NCBI RefSeq assembly: GCF_033558715.1
Contig: NZ_CP114606.1
Coordinates: 2,728,001 to 2,792,000 of the forward strand
Source of the DNA: Acinetobacter sp. YWS30-1
GTDB lineage: Bacteria; Pseudomonadota; Gammaproteobacteria; Pseudomonadales; Moraxellaceae
DNA length: 64,000 bases
Direction: 5' to 3'
The translations under genes were made by a program, and so were the position numbers. How positions within the stretch are numbered: position 1 is the first letter of the stretch; each line of letters starts with the position of its first letter. A model generated the notes under the pieces. That model did not search any database. It had not been told where the DNA came from and saw only the letters and a list, made by a program, of their open reading frames with translations. Of the stretch, positions 656 to 64,000 are shown in pieces.

Positions 656-2824
656 TTAATGATTTCTTGAAACACTGTCATTAACAATTCGAGGTGTAAC
701 AAAAATCAGTAGCTCACGTTTGTTATCCGATTTTACATCTTTACGGAATAAACGACCTAAATAAGGTAGATCGCCCAAGAAAGGAACTTTAGTTTGTGCA
801 TTTCGAGTTTCTTGCTCAAAAATACCACCAAGTACTACTGTTTCACCATTATCAACCAGTACATTAGTATTGATCTGGTTTTTATTAATCGTTAACTGTC
901 CAGTAGGTGTCGGATTTCCTGGTGAGTCACTGGTAATATTCAACTCCATCTGCACTTTACCATCTGGTGTAATACTTGGCGTTACATCTAAACTTAAAGT
1001 TGCATCAATAAATTCAGTAGTTGAAACTGCATTAGCACCACCACCTTCTGCGGACTGATAAGGAATTTGGGAACCAGATGCCACAGTCGCTTTTTGCTTG
1101 TCAGCAGTGAGCACTTTTGGTGTAGAAATTACTTCACCATAACCATCTGCCTGTAGCGCAGAAAGTTCAAGATCCAGCATAAAATCTGATAGGCTAATTA
1201 AACCAAAGGCGATGCGACTTGCTCCTGGACTAGTTACACCTAGATCCACATTAAGGTTATCCGGTCTCTGAATTTCATAGGTCCACCCCCCTCTTTCACT
1301 ATCAAATTCAGGCTCCCTCAAATCCCAAAGAGTCGTATCACTACCACCAACGAGAAGGTGATTATTATTGGTAATCCCTTGAGATAGAATCCCCCACTTC
1401 ACCCCCATTTCTTTAGTAAAGTCAGTGGTTGCACGGACAATACGCGCCTCTACCATCACCTGCTTTACCTGTACATCCAGCAGATCCACCATATTGCGAA
1501 TTTTATCAATAAATGGCTGGGTATCATTCACAATAATGGTATTGGTACGAGCATCAATAGAGATAGAGCCACGTGAACTTAATAAACTTTCTTTATCATC
1601 GTTATTAGTACTATTACTTGAATTACCTGATCCTGATGCACTTTTATTTTGAGTAATCAGTTTTTCAATATCTGCTGCTTTTGCATAACTGAGCTGCATA
1701 TATTCAGTTTGAATCGGTGCAAGTGCAACGCTTTGTTTTAAAGCCTTAGCTTCTTCTTCTTCGGCCTTAATTAGTTCTGCCACTGGTGCAATCCAGATCA
1801 CATTACCATTACGACGTTTATCCAGATTTTTGGTTTTTAATACAATATCTAAAGCCTGATCCCAAGGCACTTCTTTGAGGCGTAAGGTAATATTACCCTG
1901 TACGCTATCTGCAGCAACCATATTGATATCGGTAAAATCGGCTAATAATTGTAGAACTCGACGAACTTCAATATCTTGGAAATCGAGGGAAATTTTCTTG
2001 CCTGTATAAGCGACTGATTTAGGACGTAATGGACCCTTAACTTCTGGACGCTTCAAACTAATCGTCAGCTTATTATCCGTCTGGAAAGCCATATATTCAT
2101 AACTTTCTGTAGACTGAATAGTAATTACACCTGAACCATTTTGATTGACTGCATCTACGGTTGAAACAGGCGTGGCAAAATCATTCACATTCAAACGTCG
2201 GGTCAAATGTGCCGGAATCTTGGAGCCCAGAGTCCGCACAATCACTTTGGTTCCCTGCTGCTGTACATCGACTGGTGTGTTCTGACCTGCCAGATCAATT
2301 ACCACCAGTCCTTCACCTTGCGCACCCCGCTGGAAACCAATATTAGTAATCCCCTGAGCGACCTGCTGTTGTACAGGCTGAGCAATAGCGACTGGAGTGG
2401 CAGAATTAATTTTTAAAATAAAGGTATTGCCTTCCACACGCGTCGTAAATGCACCTGCATTAGCGAGATTCACCGTCAGTCGAGAACGCTGTGCATCTGA
2501 GCTAACATCCACTGAACTGGCTTCAGCAGTTGCGACTGGAATACTAGACTGTTTTAGATTTTGTTGGGCCTCATTAAAATCCAGAATCAGGCGTGATGGA
2601 GATTCAAGCTGATAAGCTTGAGGCTGAGGTGGCAAGCCATTAAACATCACCCGGATTTCAGTTCCCTGTCCAGGAATTTGCATTGGCACTACATTGGTCA
2701 TTGAAACTTGCGCACTCGCTACTTGCATCACAGCAATCGCGACAGCCCCCATAGAAAACTGACGAAACACATGATTCATTGTATTAGCATCCCCAAAAAT
2801 AAATTCTTTAATACTCTTATTCAT
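656..2824 (-). CDS. pilQ: Type IV pilus secretin PilQ
   Basis: PilQ forms the outer-membrane ring through which type IV pili extend and DNA enters during transformation. The 722 aa show a signal peptide ending near ASA (residue 38), AMIN-type domains in roughly residues 45-260, a secretin N-terminal domain from about 280, and the C-terminal secretin barrel with the signature VPFLGDLPYLGRLF. A Ser/Asn-rich low-complexity run lies near residues 395-410. An internal Met at residue 16 would also give a good signal peptide, but an AAGGAA Shine-Dalgarno stands just before the first ATG, so I keep that one. It is the last gene of pilMNOPQ. Confidence 0.97.
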   Translation of the reverse strand: MNKSIKEFIFGDANTMNHVFRQFSMGAVAIAVMQVASAQVSMTNVVPMQIPGQGTEIRVMFNGLPPQPQAYQLESPSRLILDFNEAQQNLKQSSIPVATAEASSVDVSSDAQRSRLTVNLANAGAFTTRVEGNTFILKINSATPVAIAQPVQQQVAQGITNIGFQRGAQGEGLVVIDLAGQNTPVDVQQQGTKVIVRTLGSKIPAHLTRRLNVNDFATPVSTVDAVNQNGSGVITIQSTESYEYMAFQTDNKLTISLKRPEVKGPLRPKSVAYTGKKISLDFQDIEVRRVLQLLADFTDINMVAADSVQGNITLRLKEVPWDQALDIVLKTKNLDKRRNGNVIWIAPVAELIKAEEEEAKALKQSVALAPIQTEYMQLSYAKAADIEKLITQNKSASGSGNSSNSTNNDDKESLLSSRGSISIDARTNTIIVNDTQPFIDKIRNMVDLLDVQVKQVMVEARIVRATTDFTKEMGVKWGILSQGITNNNHLLVGGSDTTLWDLREPEFDSERGGWTYEIQRPDNLNVDLGVTSPGASRIAFGLISLSDFMLDLELSALQADGYGEVISTPKVLTADKQKATVASGSQIPYQSAEGGGANAVSTTEFIDATLSLDVTPSITPDGKVQMELNITSDSPGNPTPTGQLTINKNQINTNVLVDNGETVVLGGIFEQETRNAQTKVPFLGDLPYLGRLFRKDVKSDNKRELLIFVTPRIVNDSVSRNH

Positions 2825-2840
2825 TTTTATTCCTTAAAAC

Positions 2841-3368
2841 TTATGGCGCTGGCCCAATCAAAACCAGACTTCGTGGTCGTTCCACATATCCCTCACGGCC
2901 ATCTGGAATAATCTCAATCAAGTCAATCTGTGTCGGCGTAATTCTCGTTACACGACCATGATTAAGTCCCATATAGCTGCCACGTTGTATCCGCTCAATT
3001 TCCCCATCAGGCGTTTGAATTAAAGCCAGAATCTGCCCCGCCTGATTCCGCATACTGCCTTTCATGCTTAAGGTTTCGAGTGGATAGCTTTCTAAAGGCT
3101 GTAATTGGCGTGACAAGTTCGGATAAACTCGCTTACCTGCCATAATTTTCAATTCAGCTGCTAAAGAGCTTGGCAGGAAAGGACTTTTCAGCTGATGAGC
3201 TGCGTAATTAAACATTTCTGTCGGAATAAAATCTGGTGCCGGTTCAATCGGTAATGGTGGTTGATTACGAATATTGGCCATTTCCTGATTGACTGCATCA
3301 ATTCTTGATTCGCAGCCCACCAATAAAAGTCCGAGCGTTAAAGCTGAAGTAATTTTAATGATATTCAT
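2841..3368 (-). CDS. pilP: Type IV pilus inner-membrane lipoprotein PilP
   Basis: PilP is a lipoprotein that links the inner-membrane PilN/PilO complex to the periplasmic domains of the secretin PilQ. The 175 aa start with a lipoprotein signal containing the lipobox LLVGC (Cys19), then a Pro-rich linker, then the conserved PilP core with PLESYPLETLSMKG and the C-terminal RPRSLVLIGP. Its start overlaps the pilO stop by one base and it ends 16 bp before pilQ, so translation is probably coupled along the operon. Confidence 0.96.
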   Translation of the reverse strand: MNIIKITSALTLGLLLVGCESRIDAVNQEMANIRNQPPLPIEPAPDFIPTEMFNYAAHQLKSPFLPSSLAAELKIMAGKRVYPNLSRQLQPLESYPLETLSMKGSMRNQAGQILALIQTPDGEIERIQRGSYMGLNHGRVTRITPTQIDLIEIIPDGREGYVERPRSLVLIGPAP

Positions 3369-4084
3369 TACTGAGCTCCCTGCGTATCAGTTGTAGCTGG
3401 AGTAGATGACGCGTCTGCATTTCCTACATAACGGTAGGTTTTAGCTTTTACTACATAATCAATGACAGGAATTTCAGATTTCTTTTCTTTATTTTCAGTC
3501 CCTGTAATGGTGAAGTCATGCAGTGTAACGATGCGCGAAAGACCTGCAATACTGCTCACAAAAGAACCAAAGGCATGATAATCCCCAGTGGCTTCAATCG
3601 CGATCGGCTGCTCAATAAAGAATTCCTGTTTGATTTCAGGTTCCAAGCGAATATTCTTGAATTTCAGTCCGGAGTTCACTCCACTCAGGTTAATATCTTC
3701 AACCAGACCTGGAATTTCAGTTTCTTTCGGCAATTGTTCCAATTGCTGATTAAAACGTGCTTCCATCTCCTGCAACTGAATCTGATACTGCTGTAAATTA
3801 CGAAGCTTAGATTCCTTTTCCCGGAATTCATTTAACAGGTTTTGTTCTTGAGCACTGGCTTGTGAAATCGCTTCTATCTTACCGCGAATAAACCCGAAAT
3901 ACCCCAGCATAAAAACCAGAATAACAATAAAGATCCAGCAGGTAATTTTGACTGATAATGGCCAGCTACCATAATTATTTGGATCTAGTGTATTGAATTG
4001 TTGAAAGAATTTTTCAACTGTCATTTTTTTTCTAGGAACAGCCACTACGTCTTGGCTTAATTCATCGAATCCGTCATTACTCAT
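3368..4084 (-). CDS. pilO: Type IV pilus alignment protein PilO
   Basis: PilO pairs with PilN in the inner membrane and tunes pilus extension. The 238 aa have a short cytoplasmic N-terminus, one membrane segment around residues 46-66 (ITCWIFIVILVFMLGYFGF), a long periplasmic coiled coil (about 70-120, rich in Gln and Glu) and a ferredoxin-like C-terminal domain. The C-terminal 25 residues are Thr/Ala-rich. It overlaps pilN by 4 bp (ATGA), a sign of translational coupling. Confidence 0.96.
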   Translation of the reverse strand: MSNDGFDELSQDVVAVPRKKMTVEKFFQQFNTLDPNNYGSWPLSVKITCWIFIVILVFMLGYFGFIRGKIEAISQASAQEQNLLNEFREKESKLRNLQQYQIQLQEMEARFNQQLEQLPKETEIPGLVEDINLSGVNSGLKFKNIRLEPEIKQEFFIEQPIAIEATGDYHAFGSFVSSIAGLSRIVTLHDFTITGTENKEKKSEIPVIDYVVKAKTYRYVGNADASSTPATTDTQGAQ

Positions 4085-4719
4085 GATGATGCCTCCGCTG
4101 TAGTTGTGGCTGGTGTTTGTCCTTCTTTAAGTGTTGGCTCAGCGATTTGATCCAGATCAACCGTGACCGTAAAGCTGCCATAAGATTCTTCCACTCGAGG
4201 AATCACTGATGATGGCGCTTTATCTTTTGGTTCTTCAGCAACCAGGAAAGCATTCATAAATGCATTACGATACCAGGTAGAAGCCTCCAGATTACGTAGC
4301 AATTCAGCCACTGTATTCGGACTTTCCGCCTTACCTTCAATGGTGAATTTATCGCCGGTACGCTGGAATTTGGTAATGTACATATTGCTTGGTGTGACCC
4401 GTACAATTTCATCAATCAGGTGAACTGCGATCGGCCGTTGAGTCTGTAAACCCTGAATCAGCTTCATACGTTCAACAATTGCATTACGCTGGTCTTGTAA
4501 ACCATCCAATGCTTTCAGCTGTACATCCAGATTCTGGTTAGTACTGACCACCAGCTGATTGGCCTGTTCCTGATCCTGAAGTTTTTGATCGTAATAGAAC
4601 CAGGTTGAACCTGCTGCTGCCAATCCTAGAAAAAGTGCCCCTGCGCAAATCGCTACAAATTCATTATTTCTTTTAATTCTTAGCTCATCGCGCCAAGGGA
4701 GTAAGTTAATCTTTGCCAT
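4081..4719 (-). CDS. pilN: Type IV pilus alignment protein PilN
   Basis: PilN is a bitopic inner-membrane protein. Its short cytoplasmic N-terminus carries the conserved MAKINLLPWRDELR, which binds a groove on PilM. A membrane helix follows at about residues 22-42, then a coiled coil and a periplasmic ferredoxin-like fold. The length of 212 aa is normal. It overlaps both neighbours (pilM stop/pilN start, and pilN stop/pilO start), placing it firmly inside the pilMNOPQ operon. Confidence 0.97.
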   Translation of the reverse strand: MAKINLLPWRDELRIKRNNEFVAICAGALFLGLAAAGSTWFYYDQKLQDQEQANQLVVSTNQNLDVQLKALDGLQDQRNAIVERMKLIQGLQTQRPIAVHLIDEIVRVTPSNMYITKFQRTGDKFTIEGKAESPNTVAELLRNLEASTWYRNAFMNAFLVAEEPKDKAPSSVIPRVEESYGSFTVTVDLDQIAEPTLKEGQTPATTTAEASS

Positions 4720-5777
4720 TAATCAAAACTCCTCAATGCCAAACCACATGCAACCATGAGTGAGGACGCGTCATTTTCAATTTTTTTAATATCAATTTGA
4801 GGAGAAAAGCCCATTTGCAGGAATGGATTGGCAATCGTGACCCGGTAGCCGAGTTTTTGCTGTAATAGTTTTGCCAGACCTGGAATATTGGCATTCCCCC
4901 CTGCCAATAAAATATGGTCAATCTCGTTAAACTGAGATGAAGAGAAGAAGAACTGTAATGAACGCGCTGCCTGCTGCACGACTGCATCTAGAAAAGGTTC
5001 CAGCACTTCGATATCATAATCATCGGGTAAGGCACGGGTTTTTTTAGCACGTCCTGCTTCCTCAAAAGACAATCCATAACGGTTCTGGATTTCCTGAGTC
5101 AGCTGCTTACCACCAAAAACCTGCTCACGAGTATAAATGATCTTGTTATTCTGCATGACGGATAAGGTCGTCATACTATGACCAATATCCAGGATCCCGA
5201 CAGTATTTACCCCCATCGGTAAGGTATCCGAAAACACCTTGAATGCATTTTCTAATGCAAAACTTTCGACATCTGCAATTTTTGGATTGAGGTTGGCAAT
5301 TTGCAGTACTTCAGAACGTGCTTCGACATTTTCGATTCGGGTCGCTACCAACAGGACATTAACCCGGTTCGGATTGGTTAAACGGTCTGGCAGAACTTCA
5401 AAGTCCAGACTGGCTTCATCAAGTGGGAAAGGAATATATTGTTCGGCATCTTCACGAATCTGAATTTCACGTTCATCATCCGACATATCAGCATCCATTT
5501 CGATGATCTTGGTGATGACCATAGAAGTTGGAATCGCAAAGGCTGACTGACTGGACTGGGTATTGGCCAAATTAATCGCACGCCCCAACGCATCACCCAC
5601 CGCTTCTGGATTTAAAATATTTTTTTCAACGACACTACTTTCTGGTAGTGGGACCAAAGCATAACTTTCTACCCAGTACCGACCGTTCTTTACAGAGAGC
5701 TCTAAAACTTTAACAGAAGTCGAACTAATATCCACTCCTATTAACCCCTTATTTGGCTTACGATATAACCTGCGCAC
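4719..5777 (-). CDS. pilM: Type IV pilus cytoplasmic ring protein PilM
   Basis: PilM is a cytoplasmic actin/FtsA-like ATP-binding protein that docks on PilN. The 352 aa show the phosphate-1 motif GLIGVDISSTSVKVLEL near the N-terminus, the phosphate-2 motif GILDIGHSMTTLSV and the adenosine motif HILLAGGNANIPGL. Translation starts at GTG; the next candidate ATG would remove the first phosphate motif. It is the first gene of the pil operon. The 166-bp gap to the divergent PBP1a gene must hold both promoters. Confidence 0.97.
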   Translation of the reverse strand: MRRLYRKPNKGLIGVDISSTSVKVLELSVKNGRYWVESYALVPLPESSVVEKNILNPEAVGDALGRAINLANTQSSQSAFAIPTSMVITKIIEMDADMSDDEREIQIREDAEQYIPFPLDEASLDFEVLPDRLTNPNRVNVLLVATRIENVEARSEVLQIANLNPKIADVESFALENAFKVFSDTLPMGVNTVGILDIGHSMTTLSVMQNNKIIYTREQVFGGKQLTQEIQNRYGLSFEEAGRAKKTRALPDDYDIEVLEPFLDAVVQQAARSLQFFFSSSQFNEIDHILLAGGNANIPGLAKLLQQKLGYRVTIANPFLQMGFSPQIDIKKIENDASSLMVACGLALRSFD

Positions 5778-18119: not shown

Positions 18120-19139
18120 TTAACGCTTCGAGTTATAGATCTGGTCGAAGATTGCGCCATTCACAAAGTGAGTTTTCTGTGCATTGGCCCAGCCACCGAA
18201 TACTTCATCAATGGTAAAGGTTTTAATTTTTGGGAACTGTGATGAATATTTGGCTAATACTTTCTCATTACGTGGACGGTAGAAATGTCGTGCTGCCATG
18301 TCCTGACCAAGTGGAGAGTAAAGATAGTTGATATAACCTTTAGCTAACCATTTATTGCCATTTTTATCTACGGTACGATCTACGATGGCTACAGAGGGTT
18401 CAGTCAGAATGGTCAAAGATGGATAAACGATATCAAACTTATTTTTACCGAGAGTTTTTTGTGTTACTAGGGCTTCATTTTCCCAAGTTAACAACACATC
18501 ACCAATATTACGTTCAGCAAATGTGGTCATCGATGCACGTGCAGCAGAGTCCATCACTTTGACGTTTTTATAAAGCTTGCCGACAAATTCTTGGGCTTTG
18601 GCTTTGCTACCACCCGGCTGTTTCTCTGCATAACCCCAAGCTGACAGATAAACCCAACGTGGCAAGCCACCAGTTTTCGGATTTGGTGTAATAATTTCTA
18701 CACCCGGTTTAGTCAGATCTTTCCAGTCTTTAATTCCTTTGGGGTTATCCTTACGTACCATGAAGACAATCGTTGAAGTATAAGGTGCAGAATTGTGCGG
18801 GAACTCTTTTTGCCAGCCTGGCTGGATCTGACCAGATCTTACGATCTCTTCAATATCGTTTGCCAATGCCAAGGTCACCACATCACCTTTTAAACCGTCA
18901 ACCACAGAACGGGCCTGTTTACCTGAACCGCCGTGAGACTGTTTAAAGTTCACATCAATACCGGTTCGTTTTTTCCAGTAGGCACCAAAAGATTTGTTGA
19001 ATTCGTCATAGAATTCACGGGTCGCATCATAAGAAACGTTCAGGAATTCACGATCCGCGGCTTGGCTCGCAGTTGCAGTATATGTCAGACCTGTTGCCAA
19101 TAAGGCAGCACTAACCAGTGATTTTAATTGAGTTTTCAT
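18120..19139 (-). CDS. sbp: Sulfate/thiosulfate ABC transporter periplasmic substrate-binding protein
   Basis: Periplasmic binding protein that delivers sulfate (or thiosulfate) to a CysTWA-type importer. The 339 aa start with a signal peptide ending near ASQA (residue 27). The family signatures LNVSYDATREFYDEFN, QSHGGSGKQARSV and DVLLTWENEA are clear, as is VFGGWANAQKTHF at the C-terminus. No permease or ATPase genes are adjacent. The start of the 242-bp upstream spacer should carry its promoter. A truncated paralogue lies immediately upstream. Choice between Sbp and CysP is not certain from sequence alone. Confidence 0.92.
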   Translation of the reverse strand: MKTQLKSLVSAALLATGLTYTATASQAADREFLNVSYDATREFYDEFNKSFGAYWKKRTGIDVNFKQSHGGSGKQARSVVDGLKGDVVTLALANDIEEIVRSGQIQPGWQKEFPHNSAPYTSTIVFMVRKDNPKGIKDWKDLTKPGVEIITPNPKTGGLPRWVYLSAWGYAEKQPGGSKAKAQEFVGKLYKNVKVMDSAARASMTTFAERNIGDVLLTWENEALVTQKTLGKNKFDIVYPSLTILTEPSVAIVDRTVDKNGNKWLAKGYINYLYSPLGQDMAARHFYRPRNEKVLAKYSSQFPKIKTFTIDEVFGGWANAQKTHFVNGAIFDQIYNSKR

Positions 19140-19381: not shown

Positions 19382-19588
19382 TTATTTACGGTTTTCCGCA
19401 GAGATTTGATCGTAGATGGCTCCATTCACAAAATGGGTTTTCTGCGCTTTTGCCCAGCCGCCAAAGACTTTATCAATGGTAAAAGTCTGGATTTTTGGGA
19501 ATTGCGCCGCATATTTTGCTGCTGCTTTAGCATCACGTGGACGGAAGTAATATTTCGCTGCCAGCTCCTGCCCTTTTGGTGAATATAA
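19382..19588 (-). pseudogene. 3' stump of a second sulfate-binding protein gene (sbp paralogue)
   Basis: The last 68 codons of an Sbp-like protein remain (LYSPKGQELAAKYYFRPRD through VFGGWAKAQKTHFVNG to the stop). They are clearly homologous to the C-terminus of the intact sbp nearby but differ at many codons, so this is an old paralogue rather than a recent duplication. It ends at a leucine codon where the IS200/IS605 right end (TCAA on the minus strand) begins. The remaining 270 or so codons are absent from the other side of the element and from the window. Confidence 0.9.
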
Positions 19589-19598
19589 TTGACATACT

Positions 19599-19629
19599 CC
19601 CACCACTTTCGTTTTCACTCAAGTGGGGG
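19599..19629 (-). repeat. IS200/IS605 right-end subterminal hairpin, predicted 3' part of the TnpB guide RNA scaffold
   Basis: On the minus strand CCCCCAC...GTGGTGGG forms an imperfect hairpin with one extrahelical T, ten nucleotides from the TCAA terminus. In characterised elements this right-end segment is also the 3' scaffold of the TnpB omega/reRNA. The guide would then be the flanking host DNA, here the sbp stump. The RNA itself is inferred. Confidence 0.7.
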
Positions 19630-19647
19630 ATTCTAAAAGCAAAGCTC

Positions 19648-20955
19648 TTAGGCGACTTCCTCACGGATTTCGCTTGCTTTCTGCTTCTTAGGGCGACCTT
19701 TACCGCATCCACCCTCCACAGACAAAACGGCATGTCCTGCCGACAATATATTACGAGATGCGTTTAAATCCGCATTCGCAACATAACCGCATCCGACACA
19801 CTCAAATTTAGCTTGAGTTTGTCGGTTTTCTTTTGCTACATGACCACATTCACAGCAGGTTTGACTTGTGTACTTCGGATCAACTTTTACAAGTAATCCA
19901 CCTCGCCATTGTTGCTTATATTCCAACATACTAACGAGCATGCCCCAACCTTGATCTAGGATTGATTTGTTTAAGCCTGACTTAGCTTTTACATTCTTTC
20001 CTTGATTTTCGATTGTGCCACTTGCTGACTTCGACATATTTGCTACTTTTAAATCCTCAACAGCAATCATTGCGTGGTTTTTGCTGAGCGTTGTAGTGAT
20101 TTTTTGCAAGTAGTCATGACGAATATTGGCAATGTGATGATGTAGTTTATTGATTTTAAAATTCAGTTTTTTCCAATTTTGACTAAATTTAACTTTCTTT
20201 CTCTGCTTCCGTTGAAGTCTAGCTAATTTAATCTGATTGGTTTTAAAGCTATTGATCGGGTCAAAGACCTGACCATTTGAGGTAGTGATTAATTTCTTAA
20301 CACCAAGATCAACACCAATCGCTGATTTTGATGGGTGGATCGGCATTTCAGTAAGTTCTGTTTCAGTACAGAATGAAACGTACCAACGTCCTGACACCTT
20401 ACTGATCGTCACATTTTTTATTGTGCCTAGAATCTCTTGCGACTTCCTGAATTTAATAACACCTACGCCATTAGGGAGTTTGAGTTTATTTCCTTTAACC
20501 CAACAGTATTTATCGAATTGTACAAGGCGAATGGAATCATAACCGTCTGATTTTTTCTTAAATCTAGGCATAAGTGGGCGCAACTGAACCTCAGTACCAT
20601 CAGCCAATTTAAAAAATTTAGGTTTCTTAGGTTTGCGCTTTTTTTCTTTTAGTCGAGCATGTTCTTTAGGGTTGAAAAACTTCCCCCATGCTGATGCAAG
20701 ATCACGAACTTTTTGTTGAAGTGACACAGCATTTGAATTTCCATCTAAAAAGCTAAACTGAGGATTCTTTTTCAGTGCTGTTATCTTTTTTACTAGATTC
20801 ACCGCATTAATGTGTTTATTTTGAGCAAACATTTCAAATGAAATTGCTAATATTTGATTCCAAACAAAGCGTGCAGAGCCAACGAGATTATTTAAAATAA
20901 CCTCTTGCTCGACATTAGGCTCAAGCCTAAATTTATACGCTTTATTGATTTTCAT
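19648..20955 (-). CDS. tnpB: RNA-guided nuclease TnpB (OrfB) of an IS200/IS605 element
   Basis: TnpB proteins are RNA-guided DNA nucleases that help IS200/IS605 elements persist by cutting the empty donor site. The 435 aa have an N-terminal helix-turn-helix/wedge region and a RuvC core with the three acidic residues Asp216 (VGVDLGVKK), Glu300 (MIAVEDLKV) and Asp396 (YVANADLNASRN). A zinc ribbon uses Cys367/Cys370 and Cys386/Cys389. All catalytic and zinc residues are present, so activity is plausible. The extreme C-terminus is Lys-rich. It is divergent from tnpA with a 59-bp gap. Confidence 0.95.
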   Translation of the reverse strand: MKINKAYKFRLEPNVEQEVILNNLVGSARFVWNQILAISFEMFAQNKHINAVNLVKKITALKKNPQFSFLDGNSNAVSLQQKVRDLASAWGKFFNPKEHARLKEKKRKPKKPKFFKLADGTEVQLRPLMPRFKKKSDGYDSIRLVQFDKYCWVKGNKLKLPNGVGVIKFRKSQEILGTIKNVTISKVSGRWYVSFCTETELTEMPIHPSKSAIGVDLGVKKLITTSNGQVFDPINSFKTNQIKLARLQRKQRKKVKFSQNWKKLNFKINKLHHHIANIRHDYLQKITTTLSKNHAMIAVEDLKVANMSKSASGTIENQGKNVKAKSGLNKSILDQGWGMLVSMLEYKQQWRGGLLVKVDPKYTSQTCCECGHVAKENRQTQAKFECVGCGYVANADLNASRNILSAGHAVLSVEGGCGKGRPKKQKASEIREEVA

Positions 20956-21014
20956 TAATGAGTGTGTATCTGGTAATATGGTGCTGATTCTAACATTTTA
21001 GGTATATTTTTTCA

Positions 21015-21413
21015 ATGAGTGAGATATATAAAAACCGACATTCAGCCTTTAATCTTCATGTTCATTTAGTTTTTATAACGAAATATCGAAAAAAAATACT
21101 AGGTGAGTTGCATCATAAATATTTCAATGAGTGTGCAACTGAAATATGTAAAGATTTTGATGCTGAATTAAAGGAATGTAATGGTGAATCCGACCATGTT
21201 CACATGCTTATTCAGTATCCACCAACGGTACAGTTAAGCAAATTGGTTAATAATTTAAAGTCTGTAACAAGTAGAAGAATGCGAAATGAGTTTTTAGACT
21301 TGAGAGGGAATTATACAAAACCTGTTTTATGGTCAAGATCATATTTTGCAGGGTCTTGTGGTGGTGCGCCTTTGGAAATAATCAAACAATATATTCAGAA
21401 TCAACAAGGTTGA
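21015..21413 (+). CDS. tnpA: IS200/IS605-family HUH transposase TnpA
   Basis: Single-strand DNA transposase of the Y1 HUH class, working as a dimer on the subterminal hairpins. The 132 aa carry the metal-binding H61-V-H63 motif (ESDHVHMLIQYPP) and the catalytic Tyr126 in the C-terminal helix (EIIKQYIQNQ). Length and motifs are complete. It overlaps no other gene and lies divergent to tnpB, the arrangement of IS605 and IS608 rather than that of ISDra2. Confidence 0.95.
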   Translation: MSEIYKNRHSAFNLHVHLVFITKYRKKILGELHHKYFNECATEICKDFDAELKECNGESDHVHMLIQYPPTVQLSKLVNNLKSVTSRRMRNEFLDLRGNYTKPVLWSRSYFAGSCGGAPLEIIKQYIQNQQG

Positions 21414-21886
21414 AATTTGTGAAATTCACCTCCACCCTGACTGACGGGTGGAGTCCTCTTTCACTTGGAGATAGTAGAAGTTATTATCTTTTTCATGATG
21501 GGCACTCATTGCTAATTTACTCAGCACTATATAAACAAAAAAATTACTTAACAATCATGTGTTTATAATATTTTATCCAATCATATTCTATTTTTGATAT
21601 ATATGCTCACAATTCATTTCGGATACATTTTCCCCTAAAAATTTAATATCCTGCTACAATATAAGACAGTTCTTCACGATCTCTACACAGTTATCTGTTA
21701 CAAATAGGCAACTTAAATGTGGAAATCCTGAGATTTAGTAATTTTCCACAGAGAAATATTAGTTTTTTGTAAAAAATGTGACTTGGTTCTACTTTTTCAT
21801 ATCTGAATGTGATTAGATTGTAGCCAGTATTATAACAACATTTTTAACAAAACAAGATTAACCAAAGCCAAGGAGGAAGTTTGGAT
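21414..21886. other. IS left end plus AT-rich spacer without genes
   Basis: The first 60 bp are the element's left end, with a perfect 8-bp hairpin CTCCACCC/GGGTGGAG at 21430-21453. From about 21474 onward the DNA is AT-rich with no homology to sbp on either strand and no convincing gene. It should include the promoter for the small exported protein at 21887. Several TTATC/TTTTCCACA-like words occur around 21690-21760 but do not form an ordered array. Confidence 0.6.
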
Positions 21887-45863: not shown

Positions 45864-45940
<77 letters not shown>

Positions 45941-46028
45941 TCAACGTGCAAAAATTATATACAAAAGATGCGAACTTTTCAATCACAACCACATCATTCT
46001 GCATATTTGTTATCTGTTACTGAAAAAT

Positions 46029-46105
<77 letters not shown>

Positions 46106-46176
46106 TCAGCATACAAATAATATTCAGCTTAATATTTTACACTAAACTGCCTTTAAAGTTTGCAGCTTTAAAGGAT

Positions 46177-46253
<77 letters not shown>

Positions 46254-46334
46254 ACAACATGCAAATAATTCTTCTCAACTTAAATCAGATTTAAGCTGCC
46301 TTTTAAAAGTTTGCGTCTTTAAAAAAGGATTGAT

Positions 46335-46411
<77 letters not shown>

Positions 46412-46437
46412 TCAACAGAAGTTTTTTTAGCTGCATA

Positions 46438-46469
46438 CACCAACTTATATTCTGGATTATAAGTTGGTG
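46438..46469. repeat. 12-bp perfect inverted repeat reaching into the tRNA-Leu 3' end
   Basis: CACCAACTTATA (46438-46449) and TATAAGTTGGTG (46458-46469) flank an 8-nt loop. On the minus strand the first arm begins in the tRNA-Leu GCACCA tail. No U-tract follows directly, so this is not a standard terminator. Confidence 0.75.
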
Positions 46470-46549
46470 CGGAAGGGGGGACTTGAACCCCCACGCCCGA
46501 AAGCACTACCACCTCAAGGTAGCGTGTCTACCAATTCCACCACCACCGC
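46465..46549 (-). tRNA. tRNA-Leu (GAG)
   Basis: 85-nt class II tRNA with a long variable arm. Anticodon stem CTACC/GGTAG encloses TTGAGGT, anticodon GAG. T-arm GGGGGTTCAAGTCCCCC and CCA are present. The acceptor stem (GCGGTGG with CTTCCGC) contains a T-T mismatch at 5:68 and a G-T wobble next to it, unusual for a functional tRNA but tolerable. Confidence 0.94.
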
Positions 46550-58903: not shown

Positions 58904-60253
58904 TTAATGTGGGATGGTGCTTACGCTGGCAGTAATCTTGTCATTGACGTGATGTGCATAGACAAAGACAGTTTGATTGGCTTTGACATCCAGATTGACA
59001 GCTGAACTGGAAAGACTGCCGCTAGAGAGCTGTAATTTATGGTTACCTGGAGCGAGATTTAAGCGGGCAATCTGGGCATTACTTGGCAAGGTACTCCAGC
59101 CACGCAAGTCGGCACGTTCAGTTGACATATTAAGCACATTGCCGGCCACCTGACCCAAAATACCCAGCTGATTGCCCAACTGTTTTTGTGCCGCATATTT
59201 GGCGCTTGCACGCATGATTTGACTGGTCAGATTGCCTACTACTTTTTCTTTCAGATCTTTAACTGCCAGAGCGCCAATATCACTAATCACGTAGCTGTCT
59301 TGCATAGGCTTATTGTTAACTTTGACTTTTAAGCTTTTCGGTGCCACATAGGTGCTTGGTTCATAAGTCGCAAAAGCGATATTGACCAGACCGCCTGGTG
59401 TTGGCACATCAATCTTGTTTTCAACCTTTTGTGGCACAATGCCTTGCTCGATAAAGACAATCACCGGCACACTGCCACTTTTTGGTTTTGCTACTAACTG
59501 ATTCAGGCGTTTTACATCTTGGGCAATCTGCGCATCTGGTTGTAATTCATAGGCCTTTTTATAATCTACCAAGGCATCATTATATTCACCCAAGGTTTCC
59601 CATAAATTGGCAGCCATGTAGAACGCATACGCATTCTGGTAGCTGTTTTTAATCTTGCCTGCAATAGGGTCCAAACCTATAAACGCTTCATCCAGTGCGC
59701 TAAGCGGATTTCCTTCAGTAGCCGGTTTTTTAACTTTATCTTTTTTTCTTTCCAGCTCTTTCTGGTGAGCCAGTTCAATTTCACGCTGGAGGCCTTGCGC
59801 GACCCGCATTTCTACGGATGCAGCTTCTAAATCTTTGAGAAAAATATAGTTTTTTGCCTGAGAAATATGTGCCAGTACCTGTTCATGTGGTGGCACCAGA
59901 TAAGGAACGATTGAATCATTACTCATCAAAGCCAGAGCTTTAAAGCCCACACGGGATACACTGACTTTCGCACGATTTTGCTGTTTATCCAGCAAAGTAA
60001 AAGCCTGTTTATAATATTCTTGGCTTTGATCATATTGATGATTAACCTGTAATAAACGGGCTTGTTCTAACAGATATAAAACTCCATCTTTTGAATTAGT
60101 TTTATTCTTGAAATCTGTAATTAAATTTTCAGACAGTTCTGCATTTAAATGACTACGAAAAAAATTACCTTCTTCATTATATGTTTTGAATACTGCCGCA
60201 TGGGAAATAATAGATGCTGAACATAGAGTAGAAATTAAAGTCGGCGAATTCAA
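58904..60253 (-). CDS. COG3014-type envelope protein with TPR region, 5' end displaced by ISAba125
   Basis: A 449-codon frame with alpha-helical repeats in about residues 50-100 and 210-255 (YYKQAFTLLDK, NALVDYKKAYELQPDAQIAQDV-type TPR pattern). A C-terminal beta domain has GGLVNIAFATYEPSTYVAP and LRGWSTLPSNAQIARLNLAPG. The present frame starts at TTG codons supplied by the IS end. Joining across the IS restores the natural start MHHFFKGTLISTLCS, a signal peptide ending SHA. With the IS present the first seven native residues and their two Lys/His charges are lost, so export and expression are probably poor. First gene of the four-gene operon. Confidence 0.82.
   Translation of the reverse strand: MNSPTLISTLCSASIISHAAVFKTYNEEGNFFRSHLNAELSENLITDFKNKTNSKDGVLYLLEQARLLQVNHQYDQSQEYYKQAFTLLDKQQNRAKVSVSRVGFKALALMSNDSIVPYLVPPHEQVLAHISQAKNYIFLKDLEAASVEMRVAQGLQREIELAHQKELERKKDKVKKPATEGNPLSALDEAFIGLDPIAGKIKNSYQNAYAFYMAANLWETLGEYNDALVDYKKAYELQPDAQIAQDVKRLNQLVAKPKSGSVPVIVFIEQGIVPQKVENKIDVPTPGGLVNIAFATYEPSTYVAPKSLKVKVNNKPMQDSYVISDIGALAVKDLKEKVVGNLTSQIMRASAKYAAQKQLGNQLGILGQVAGNVLNMSTERADLRGWSTLPSNAQIARLNLAPGNHKLQLSSGSLSSSAVNLDVKANQTVFVYAHHVNDKITASVSTIPH
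60240..60242. repeat. 3-bp target duplication, left copy
   Basis: GTC directly left of ISAba125, repeated at 61330-61332. Confidence 0.85.
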
Positions 60254-61329
60254 ACATGAGGTGCGACAGTTTCAAAAGCCTTATGATAATCAACAAGCTG
60301 AGCAAATTTCTCTAATGGTGTAAGCCAATCTAACGCTTTTCTAGGACGAGTATTCAGTGACATGGCGACTTGATTTAAATAATGCTGATCTGCCTGATTT
60401 AAATCAATCCCTTTAGGTAAATATTGCCTAATTAAACCATTCATATTTTCGCATGTACCTTTCTGCCATGGCGAATGTGGGTCACAGAAATATACATCTA
60501 TGCCTAAATCTTCTTCGAGGATTTTATGTTCTGACATCTCACGTCCACGGTCATAGGTCAACGTTTTACGTAGTTCTGCAGGTAAATATTTCAGAGCTTC
60601 AGTTAAAGCCTTGCGCACTGATTCTGCCTTTGCATCAGGTAATGTTGCCAAGATACAGAGCCGTGTATTTCGTTCAATAAGTGTTGCTATCGAACTTTTA
60701 TTGTCTTTACCTTTAATTAAATCGGCTTCCCAATGACCCGGTATTTTTCTTTCTTGAACTTCGGCTGGGCGCTCATGAATAGTTTTAATATCCTGTAATA
60801 TAGAATCTTTTTTAGGTTCACCGTTAGCTTTTCGCTTTTTATTTTCATGACGCAGACAGGATAATAAGTCTTTTTTCAACTCACCCTTTGGTAATGCTCG
60901 TATAGTTGAATAAATCGTTGTATGGCTTACATTCATTGTTTGATCCAAATCAGGAAATGTCTTTAAACGCTTTGCTATTTGCTGAGGAGACCATAAACAA
61001 CGGATCGCTTCAACAATAAATCTCCAGAGAATTGAGTCGATTTTGAGTTTTCTGTGACCGCGTCTACGTCTAGCGAAGGTGTTATCAGAAGCATATTGAG
61101 CTTGATAAACGTCATTGATGCTATTTCTTTTAAGCTCACGATAGATCGTACTAGGATGTCTTTTAATGAGTTCAGCAAATTTTCTGGCTGAAAAGCCTTC
61201 TTTTCTTGACTCAAGCATTAATGCAGTACGATCTTCAAAGTTAAGATGATGGTATGACAATTTTATATACTCCATAAACCCTTTAAATTAATTAGGTGGT
61301 TTATGTCGCACTTCAAGTTTTACTCTGCC
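60243..61329 (-). mobile_element. ISAba125 (IS30 family), complete
   Basis: A 1087-bp element bounded by imperfect inverted repeats: GGCGAATTCAAACATGAGGTGCGACA on the left (given here only in part as GGCGAATTC...GTGCGACA) and GGCAGAGTAAAAC...GTGCGACA on the right, flanked by GTC on both sides. Length, ends and transposase agree with what I know of ISAba125, whose same end supplies a -35 box to blaNDM-1 in other contexts. It carries one intact transposase gene on the minus strand. Confidence 0.92.
60250..61275 (-). CDS. ISAba125 IS30-family transposase
   Basis: A 341-aa DDE transposase of the IS30 family. The N-terminal helix-turn-helix (FAELIKRHPSTIYRELKRN) is followed by the catalytic core with Asp in PGHWEADLIKG, Asp in LTYDRGREM and Glu in SPWQKGTCENMNGLIRQYLP, then NTRPRKALDWLTPLE. 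All three catalytic residues are present, so it is likely active. The stop codon lies within the left inverted repeat. Confidence 0.95.
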   Translation of the reverse strand: MEYIKLSYHHLNFEDRTALMLESRKEGFSARKFAELIKRHPSTIYRELKRNSINDVYQAQYASDNTFARRRRGHRKLKIDSILWRFIVEAIRCLWSPQQIAKRLKTFPDLDQTMNVSHTTIYSTIRALPKGELKKDLLSCLRHENKKRKANGEPKKDSILQDIKTIHERPAEVQERKIPGHWEADLIKGKDNKSSIATLIERNTRLCILATLPDAKAESVRKALTEALKYLPAELRKTLTYDRGREMSEHKILEEDLGIDVYFCDPHSPWQKGTCENMNGLIRQYLPKGIDLNQADQHYLNQVAMSLNTRPRKALDWLTPLEKFAQLVDYHKAFETVAPHV

Positions 61330-61352
61330 GTCCCTTTAAAAAAATGATGCAT
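61330..61352 (-). pseudogene. Displaced 5' end of the COG3014-type gene
   Basis: On the minus strand ATGCATCATTTTTTTAAAGG then GAC reads MHHFFKG, the natural start of the gene interrupted at 60242. The GTC duplication lies at 61330-61332. The gene's own promoter must be further right, in the AT-rich spacer. Confidence 0.85.
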
Positions 61353-61996
61353 AACGATCCGTTAAAATAATAGAAGATTAAAAATCGGCGCATCTTACAA
61401 ACAAAGCCTGATTGTTTCAATATGTAGTTTATGTATATATTACGTAAAATTTAACTCTAAACAAACGCATTATATTTACCTAAATTAAACAATATTAAAT
61501 AAACTTTACAAATTATGATCGTTTTTAAGTATGAAAAATCTTTTCTATTATTGCTATATAAGTTTAATTAATTACATCTATTCATTAATAAAATAACTTA
61601 TAAAAAATTAATAAAAAATAAAGCACTCCGCTTTAAATATAAAATTTAATATTTTCTTTTATTTAATTATTTAGTTTAATTATTAAACAATTAAAAATAT
61701 ATAAACTTATCCCTTATTGAATTTATTTTATATTCTTAGTCAATAATAAATGCACTCTAGAATTTACCATTCAATAAAATAAAACTGATTTTATTGATTT
61801 ATTGAAAAAATAAAAAAAATACCTATTTGTAGTTTTTTTATACTCAGTATCTACAAAGCTAAGTTGTCAGTGGTGCATTTTTGTGGGATAAGTAAATAAA
61901 GGAATAGATAATTTGCAAATTGAAAATCCAGTCTTTTGCCCTGATAAATCATCTACCACGATCACAAACGATATAGACTTTTGGAGAGCCGCTCAG
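61353..61996. other. Very AT-rich divergent spacer
   Basis: About 640 bp between the broken COG3014-type gene and yqgE, dominated by A/T runs from about 61430 to 61870. It holds the promoters of both divergent units. No gene, tRNA or ordered repeats seen. Such DNA is often intrinsically bent and bound by H-NS-type proteins. Confidence 0.55.
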
Positions 61997-62551
61997 GTGA
62001 CTAAACAATATCTGACTCATCGTTGTCTGATTGCGCCACCCCATGCAAGTGACGATTTTTTTGCCCATACGGTCATTTATCTGGCTCGTCATGATGAAGA
62101 TGGCGCTCAAGGGATTATTATTAACCGCCCTGCTGGCATTCAAATTAAAGAATTGCTGAATGATCTGGACATTGAGGCGGATAATGTCAATCCCCATGAA
62201 GTGTTGCAAGGTGGACCTTTGCGACCAGAGGCCGGTTTTGTCCTGCATACCGGTCAGCCGACTTGGCATTCCTCTATTGCTGTGGGTGAAAATGTTTGTA
62301 TTACCACATCTAAAGATATTCTGGATGCGATTGCGCATAATGGAGGCGTAGGCCGCTATCAGATCGCCTTGGGTTATGCGAGCTGGGGCAAACATCAGCT
62401 TGAAGAAGAGATTGCCCGAGGTGACTGGCTAATCTGTGAATCCGATATGGACCTGATTTTTAACTTACCTTATAACGACCGCTGGGATGCTGCCTATAAA
62501 AAAATGGGCGTAGACCGAACCTGGTTATCTTCCGAGATTGGACATGCCTGA
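61997..62551 (+). CDS. YqgE/AlgH family protein
   Basis: A 184-aa protein of the UPF0301 (YqgE/AlgH) family, probably cytoplasmic; its biochemical role is not settled. Motifs are [56 protein letters not shown] and the C-terminal [13 protein letters not shown]. The open frame extends 28 codons upstream through a TTG, but the GTG at 61997 ([10 protein letters not shown]) has a GGAGAG site and gives the usual family length. It overlaps ruvX by 8 bp, the conserved yqgE-yqgF pair. Confidence 0.93.
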
Positions 62552-62987
62552 TGTAAACGCGCCAAACACTATTATGGCGTTTGATTTTGGTACACAGAAA
62601 ATGGGAATAGCAGTCGGCCAATCCCTGATTGAAAGTGCCAATCCCCTCCCTTTATTTCCTATGAAAGACGGGATTCCGAACTGGGACGAATTACTGAAAA
62701 TTGTAAAAAGCCATCAGCCGGGCCTATTTTTGGTCGGCCTGCCACTAAATATGGATGATAGTGAATCTGAACTGTCGACACGGGCACGTAAATTTGCCCG
62801 CCGTTTACGTCATCAGACCAATATTGAAACCTTGATGGTGGATGAACGCCTGACCACTCGTGAAGCACGGGATGAACTGGATCATTATCAGGCACAAGGT
62901 CGCGGCAAAAAATTGTCTGCGGACAGTATTGCTGCTGCCCTCTTGATTGAAAGCTGGTATAGGCATCCGGCTGGACTGCAACCCTAA
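62544..62987 (+). CDS. ruvX: RuvX/YqgF, putative Holliday junction resolvase / pre-16S rRNA nuclease
   Basis: A small RNase H-fold nuclease implicated in 16S rRNA 5'-end maturation. The 147 aa contain [16 protein letters not shown] (first Asp), [30 protein letters not shown] (Glu) and [13 protein letters not shown] (final Asp). The start is the ATG at 62544 (MPDVNAPN), 8 bp inside yqgE, indicating coupled translation. The gene follows yqgE in most gammaproteobacteria. Confidence 0.95.
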
Positions 62988-63007
62988 ATTTCTTTTAAAT
63001 ATAAGCA

Positions 63008-63036
63008 ATAGCATCTTTCGAGATACTATTTTTTTT
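63008..63036 (+). terminator. Terminator after ruvX with TTCG tetraloop
   Basis: ATAGCATCT-TTCG-AGATACTAT (one mismatch) followed by eight T residues, 20 bp after ruvX. The UUCG loop stabilises the RNA hairpin. Confidence 0.85.
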
Positions 63037-63222
63037 GAATTGAAGAATCTCTTTTTTAGTTCATTGGGGTACTTTTAATCTAAAAACAATAGAGTGCCTT
63101 CATCAATCATTTTTTCATCATTCGACACCGAAGAAATCCCCTTATCCTAATTTCTCCCTGATAGAGAAAGAACTTTAAATACGAATGGACTAACATTTTT
63201 GGTTTTATCAAAGATAATTTAA

Positions 63223-63843
63223 TTAAGGAAAAAAATAACGAAAGGTCAGGTTAATTCTAGGTTCTAAAACCCGAGTCGTTTTCCGGATACAATGTTTCCA
63301 GTAGTGTTGGGTCTGTCCTCGCATCACAATCAACTGACCACTTTGTAAAAGCAGATCTACTGTTTCATTCTCTGTTTTGTGTTTAAAGCTCATCTTGCGG
63401 GTTGCCCCCAAACTGAGGGATGCAATCACATTTTCCTGTGACGTTCCCTGATATAAAGCCGCTTCATCATCACTATGCCAGCCCAGACCTTGCGAACCAT
63501 CTTCATATAAATTGGCCAGACAGGAATTAAACGAATGACCGACCAGCTTTTCAATATGCTGTTTTAACCGGAACAGACCCGGTGTCCAGATCTGAGCCTG
63601 CTTGAAACTTCCAGAGTAGTGATACTGATAATGTTCATCGCCATACCACACCACTTTTCGTCCCGTAATATAATGCTTGCCAAATAAATTCACTTCGTCC
63701 GGCTGCCAGACCAGATGAGCTAAAAAATCCTGTAAATATTGCTGGCTCTGCTTTTCATCCAAAATCTGGCCATAATCTTCCACGACCCCATCAAAGGGTA
63801 ATAGATTAGCTTGAGGTTCTGGCGCAAACAGGTCCAAAGTCAT
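63223..63843 (-). CDS. AlkB-like 2-oxoglutarate/Fe(II)-dependent dioxygenase
   Basis: A 206-aa dioxygenase of the AlkB superfamily, closest in motif layout to the ALKBH2/3 branch rather than E. coli AlkB. The iron ligands are H123 and D125 (GWHSDDEAALY) and probably H184 (MRGQTQHYWKHCIRK). The 2-oxoglutarate Arg residues are in EPRINLTFR. The nucleotide-recognition lid has LFGKHYITGRKVVWYGD. It likely reverses N1-methyladenine/N3-methylcytosine lesions. No adaptive-response gene ada is adjacent, so it is probably constitutive or self-standing. Starts at 63843, no close neighbour. Confidence 0.9.
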   Translation of the reverse strand: MTLDLFAPEPQANLLPFDGVVEDYGQILDEKQSQQYLQDFLAHLVWQPDEVNLFGKHYITGRKVVWYGDEHYQYHYSGSFKQAQIWTPGLFRLKQHIEKLVGHSFNSCLANLYEDGSQGLGWHSDDEAALYQGTSQENVIASLSLGATRKMSFKHKTENETVDLLLQSGQLIVMRGQTQHYWKHCIRKTTRVLEPRINLTFRYFFP

Positions 63844-64000
63844 TTTAAAATCAGTCTAAAAATTTCAGTATCTTGCTGAAAAGATTGAGACTTATCCGGA
63901 AAAATTACAATCTAATTTCACAAATAAATACAACATTTACTCTTGTGAGTACCTTTATTCCTGCCTAGACTAAATTCAACTTTGACAATAAAAATAATTG
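63844..64000. other. Right window edge, no gene identified
   Basis: 157 bp of AT-rich DNA upstream of the AlkB-like gene. It likely contains that gene's promoter. Nothing else recognised. Confidence 0.4.

Follow-up and report, generated by a model that had tools for sequence, protein, structure and literature searches.

A CTAT-targeting IS200/IS605-family element in an Acinetobacter sulfate-binding-protein gene: a predicted TnpB guide and a deletion bounded by target motifs

Results

An IS200/IS605-family element that interrupts a second sulfate-binding-protein gene (sbp2) of Acinetobacter carries both tnpA and tnpB, and 772 bp of sbp2 are missing between the two remnants on either side of it. 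The missing interval is bounded at both ends by CTAT, which is also the motif at which related elements are inserted. By analogy with studied members of the family, the sbp2 sequence adjoining the right end would serve TnpB as guide, and we infer that TnpB cuts DNA in which CTAT is followed by that guide.

Locus and layout of the element

The window, i.e. the whole 64,000-nucleotide stretch analyzed, sits within a 3.3-Mb genome. Intact sbp1, the remains of sbp2 and the element lie between what we take, having named the neighbors by eye, to be cell-wall genes and gltX (Table 1). The ends of the element were placed by identity with copies in Acinetobacter towneri and by empty sites in relatives. 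Its tnpA and tnpB diverge, a single copy is present in this genome, and another genome of the genus (G088) carries the same element. Elsewhere in the window, four tRNA-Met genes (anticodon CAT) stand in a row and are followed by tRNA-Leu (45864–46549, minus strand), and the G+C fraction is 0.367 at 60001–64000 compared with 0.39–0.48 in the other 4-kb blocks.

Table 1. Features of the sbp2 locus (positions in the window)
Feature	Position	Strand	Remarks
sbp1, intact sulfate-binding-protein gene	18120..19139	-	
sbp2 3' stump, 68 codons and stop	19382..19588	-	
Predicted 16-nt guide TTATATTCACCAAAAG, sbp2 flank	19573..19588	-	position by ISDra2 precedent
IS200/IS605-family element, 1882 bp	19589..21470	-	left end 21470, right end 19589
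Right end: GAAT, hairpin with bulged T, linker, TCAA	19589..19633	-	
Predicted guide-RNA scaffold, last 140 nt of element	19589..19728	-	fold and pair counts
tnpB, 435 aa, predicted RNA-guided nuclease	19648..20955	-	
tnpA, 132 aa, Y1 HUH transposase	21015..21413	+	His-x-His in DHVHM, Tyr126
Left-end hairpin CTCCACCC/GGGTGGAG	21430..21453	-	
CTAT at left boundary, target motif, predicted TAM	21471..21474	-	
sbp2 start, first 26 bp, left of element	21471..21496	-	comparison with G114

The tnpB frame is open throughout and retains the RuvC triad (Asp216, Glu300 and Asp396) and the zinc-binding domain with its cysteine pairs 367/370 and 386/389, in keeping with an earlier reading made from the letters of this DNA (the sequence-only reading), which had called the gene intact. 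Its product matches Pfam OrfB_IS605 and Cas12f1-like_TNB, and scores 308.7 bits against NCBIfam guided_TnpB, for which the cut-off is 100. The tnpA frame is likewise intact, encodes the His-x-His motif and single catalytic tyrosine of a Y1 HUH transposase, matches Pfam Y1_Tnp and NCBIfam transpos_IS200, and aligns to the ISHp608 transposase. Hairpins lie close to both ends, in a family that needs no terminal inverted repeats, and the element sits 3' of a short fixed motif with no duplication of the target. By each of these tested features it belongs to IS200/IS605.

Structure of the ends and predicted RNA scaffold

Read on the minus strand, the right end consists of GAAT from 19633, the bulged-T hairpin and AGTATGTCAA, which finishes at 19589; directly after it comes TTATATTCACC, belonging to the sbp2 stump. 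The sequence-only reading had the order of GAAT, hairpin and stump right but set TCAA after a spacer of ten nucleotides, whereas the ten nucleotides that follow the hairpin already include it. Folding of the right end, which that reading had named as a check, exceeds chance: the DNA hairpin of the right end has a z-score of −3.39 (1 of 200 shuffles as good), and the 160-nt RNA formed by the last 140 nt of the element and 20 nt of guide folds with a z-score of −3.41 (0 of 200). The left hairpin has a z-score of −2.89, and the four bases 5' of it (21457–21454) are AGGA.

The right end is conserved among related elements. From 36 right ends found we aligned 32, leaving out L046, L058 and L067 for their closeness to rows that were kept and L052 because it is no end of an element. 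In this alignment 91.7% of cells are able to pair, compared with 90.6% after shuffling. Two-sided changes were seen in 34 cells against a shuffled mean of 16.4, a count that none of 500 shuffles reached, and seven pairs show such a change, a number reached in 25 of 500 shuffles; the number of further pair types in the 32 right ends did not exceed that in the shuffles (25 compared with 25.7). The structure was derived from one of the sequences and is thereby favored over slid versions of itself, and its two upstream helices are poorly kept (88 and 74% paired). Rfam has no family for the right end and returned two matches below threshold. The structure and its two-sided changes speak for a guide RNA from the right end, the production of which is likely.

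The target motif is CTAT

Relatives of the element came from three sources: contigs of genomes gave 62 loci, 33 of 194 whole genomes had some match, often a short one, and plasmids were included as well. A pattern requiring both ends retrieved 45 copies, among which 24 have distinct flanks. At the left boundary of these distinct insertions, 8–10 nt ahead of the conserved left-end block, the motif is CTAT in 23 and TTAT in one, so that all 24 junctions have [CT]TAT at the boundary; TTAC does not occur in the 14 nt before the block in any of them. That CTAT belongs to the target follows from empty sites in relatives, since at the seven securely clean sites the motif runs directly into the right flank, reading CTAT in six and CGAT in one, the latter in a diverged relative. 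An excerpt of PMC5934647 describes how the target of IS608 is read by pairing with the four bases adjoining the left hairpin. In the present elements those bases are AGGA in 23 of 24 and AGAA in the remaining one (L009), which also sits at CTAT. With the pairing register carried over from IS608, AGGA would suit CTAT better than TTAC, a hint in favor of the former.

The deletion in sbp2 and other empty sites

The size of the loss was taken from G114, a genome that is 96.5% identical across 1 kb comprising the sbp2 start and the DNA upstream of it. There, sbp2 begins with the sequence that in the window flanks the element on the left, from ATG to ...TCTACTAT, and the match to the right flank starts 772 bp further on, after ...AAACTAT. 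The upstream CTAT spans codons 8–9 of sbp2, and three more CTATs inside the missing interval were not used. The sequence-only reading had overlooked both the loss and the identity of the left flank (21496–21471) with the start of the same gene.

Of the 24 distinct insertions, 16, among them the one in sbp2, were compared with empty sites read from the assemblies of relatives; L036, L041, L044, L051, L054, L055, L124 and L125 were left out. Eleven sites were securely resolved. Seven are clean (L008, L009, L012, L034, L047, L048 and L049), and four are losses from CTAT to CTAT: that at sbp2, L005 in A. lwoffii (173 bp compared with G209), L033 in A. towneri (2456 bp compared with G009, G024 and G001) and L010 in A. 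pseudolwoffii (6505 bp compared with G023). As it was the sbp2 case that prompted the count, the figure without it is three losses in 10 resolved sites. Outside the secure set are L042, which is weakly clean (77–79% identity, intervals of −2 and −3); L002, which beyond short pieces matched nothing but its own genome; L003, for which the left flank alone aligned in the stretches compared; L031, which lies in repeated DNA; and L056, which is diverged and has no clear CTAT, the interval being 16 or 65 bases too long.

A relative still shows CTAT at the far end in three of the four losses. This tetranucleotide occupies 0.24–0.28% of positions per strand in the window, and three far ends at CTAT are therefore not due to chance. 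At L033 the three relatives have CTGT or CTTT at the far end, and one of the three has CTAT at the near end. Only one relative, G023, has both flanks of L010, and the difference there may be an insertion in G023 instead of a loss; the interval in G023 holds frames that look ordinary by eye.

The L033 copy (around 1985–4817) has replaced most of a long gene whose 3' part is kept beside the right end, much as in sbp2. In G009 this gene is a frame of more than 900 aa, helicase-like by eye. An rRNA account of the 2456-bp A. towneri interval was discarded, the interval having no Rfam match and one long frame. Elements of about 1.5 kb make up 10 of the 24 insertions (L005, L008, L009, L010, L012, L036, L048, L049, L054 and L056) and, judged by their length, are without tnpA. 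The losses at L005 and L010 lie beside such short elements and would thus need a transposase acting in trans.

The predicted guide matches element-free sbp2 alleles

The guide is predicted to be the flank that follows the right end, TTATATTCACCAAAAGGGCA, and the motif required by TnpB to be the target of TnpA, as in ISDra2, whose guide comes from the right flank and whose TnpB motif equals the TnpA target site (PMC8612924, in excerpt). CTAT followed by the first 16 guide bases is found exactly in sbp2 of at least five other Acinetobacter genomes; the matches checked, in G114, G043, G207, G060 and G111, are all element-free sbp2 alleles. The predicted guide is sequence of the sbp paralogue, as the sequence-only reading had proposed, and in these element-free alleles the motif lies next to it. 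In G043, G207, G060 and G111, sbp2 is a frame of 354 aa. The G114 gene (L023) is open for 314 aa and stops some 20 residues earlier than in these four genomes; there, too, the gene may be in decay.

Within its own genome, with up to three mismatches allowed over CTAT and 16 nt, the sole match is the stump itself, in which TCAA replaces CTAT. A reversed-pattern control also gave one match, so single matches at three mismatches mean little. Across the genus 148 of 175 genomes match with up to three mismatches, and controls often match too, for which reason exact matches alone were used.

The sequence-only reading had further held that sbp1 escapes cutting through its many mismatches and through lack of the motif. 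The first part stands, as sbp1 differs from the guide at 8 of 20 positions, four of them within the first 12. The second does not, as the equivalent place in sbp1 reads AACTAT and CTAT is present. Judged from these sequences, it is the mismatches to the guide, and not a missing motif, that should spare sbp1 from TnpB.

Discussion

We consider the locus best explained by an intact TnpA/TnpB element that targets CTAT, is directed by its guide to cut matching DNA, and beside which sbp2 sequence was lost from CTAT to CTAT through TnpA, an account that we hold to be somewhat probable. The genes, the ends, CTAT, the conserved structure, the empty sites and the boundaries of the deletion are seen in the sequences; that the RNA is made, that TnpB cuts, which enzyme caused the deletion and which event came first is what we infer. 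TnpA would move the element as single-stranded DNA and insert it 3' of CTAT. For TnpB, the RNA scaffold would come from the right end and the guide from the sbp2 bases next to it. It would cut CTAT plus guide either at the empty site left by excision or in an sbp2 allele that lacks the element and has come in from a relative, after which repair would copy the element back. A second event would have removed exactly the DNA between the CTAT near the start of sbp2 and the CTAT 772 bp on. Most likely TnpA either cleaved the distant CTAT instead of the element's own left site or acted on two CTATs during a single integration, and joined across. Had the upstream CTAT been the element's first site, new DNA would have come to lie at its right end and the guide would have been re-set.

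The same junction would result from homologous recombination between two copies in the same direction, one at each sbp2 CTAT, with element, motif and guide as above; TnpA would then have made ordinary insertions only, and the deletion would be the work of the host. All three other losses could have arisen likewise, at least four copies that are nearly identical occur in A. towneri, the host of the L033 loss, and an excerpt of PMC11708052 reports adjacent deletions and copy recombination for other IS families. Such recombination requires, however, two same-direction insertions within 772 bp at sbp2 and within 173 bp at L005, and the single copy in the present genome makes two nearby insertions less likely; we rate this route as possible but clearly behind deletion by TnpA. 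We consider it improbable that the transposase had no part in the sbp2 loss, which would then be an independent deletion or the result of slippage at short repeats, with the CTATs coincidental or acting only as 4-bp microhomology. Repeats of 4 bp can serve microhomology deletions and sbp2 is dispensable beside sbp1, but in all three cases in which a relative still shows the far-end motif the boundary falls exactly on CTAT, and no junction among the 24 lacks [CT]TAT at the boundary.

Two further readings concern TnpB itself. The element could be dead: TnpB or its guide RNA may have ceased to be produced or may have lost activity, which would leave the flank a purely nominal guide. That this genome has one copy only would fit. 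Both frames are, however, intact with their catalytic residues, and the near-identity of the copies found at several sites in A. towneri points to recent movement; we think a dead element unlikely. The sequence-only reading had assigned TnpB the motif TTAC, the want of which would spare sbp1. The IS608 motif is indeed TTAC, and GAAT and TCAA are common to IS608 and the present element (PMC5934647, in excerpt). As motif of this element TTAC is nevertheless ruled out by its absence from all 24 insertions and by the empty sbp2 site, which reads AACTAT, as does the equivalent site in sbp1; there is scarcely any chance that TnpB recognizes it.

Comparison with known systems places the CTAT element close to studied ones. 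The copies of A. towneri DSM 14962 (L031–L034) share its ends and boundary CTAT, and their tnpB is 100% identical in the best tblastn segment; they differ in occupying other sites, L033 with its own loss and L034 clean. TnpA is related to the solved transposase of IS608 (ISHp608, Helicobacter pylori), and both elements have GAAT and TCAA at the right end and a bulged hairpin and insert 3' of a tetranucleotide that is kept (PMC5934647, in excerpt), but IS608 uses TTAC and carries AAAG before the left hairpin where the present element has CTAT and AGGA. TnpB belongs to the same family as that of ISDra2 (8bf8 and 8h1j, E 2.8e-40), whose arrangement of guide and motif it is predicted to share (PMC8612924, in excerpt), while the ISDra2 motif is TTGAT. 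Among Acinetobacter elements, ISAba30 is reported to have a tested TnpB.

That guides taken from the insertion site direct cutting of element-free copies is the accepted view of TnpB (excerpts of PMC8612924 and PMC11870625). The role of the right end as scaffold and of the flank as guide, with cutting of empty copies, is established for the family; the sequence-only reading carried it over to this locus, where it would hold as well. A plasmid TnpB gene drive described in an excerpt of the preprint PMC11870625 similarly has a guide that records the insertion site and cuts element-free copies; the present element, in contrast, is chromosomal, has a deletion alongside and is known from sequence alone. 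The adjacent deletions of IS150 and IS903-type elements resemble those found here in that the IS is kept and neighboring DNA is lost (PMC11708052, in excerpt), but they involve other transposase classes, whereas the losses beside the present element end at target motifs. Neither IS200 nor IS605 appears in the text of PMC11708052. The arrangement of guide and scaffold is ordinary for IS200/IS605 elements with tnpB, and deletion from CTAT to CTAT less so. Among the papers listed in searches of a collection short on subscription papers, there was no report of a CTAT TnpB group or of motif-to-motif deletions by IS200/IS605 elements.

These data describe a TnpB group with a well-supported motif, CTAT, and with naturally matched targets in sister species, which makes cutting directly testable. 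If TnpA makes the deletions, IS200/IS605 elements would go beyond seamless insertion and excision and remove DNA exactly between target motifs, and the nuclease may be reprogrammed in the same step. More speculatively, TnpA may often make exact motif-to-motif deletions beside the elements of this Acinetobacter/Psychrobacter group. Since it is the flank that specifies the guide, each deletion could supply TnpB with a new guide for the intact allele of the newly truncated gene, and element and deletion could spread together by cut-and-copy repair. We put this forward tentatively; if true, it would amount to a drive for gene deletion, beyond a drive for insertion.
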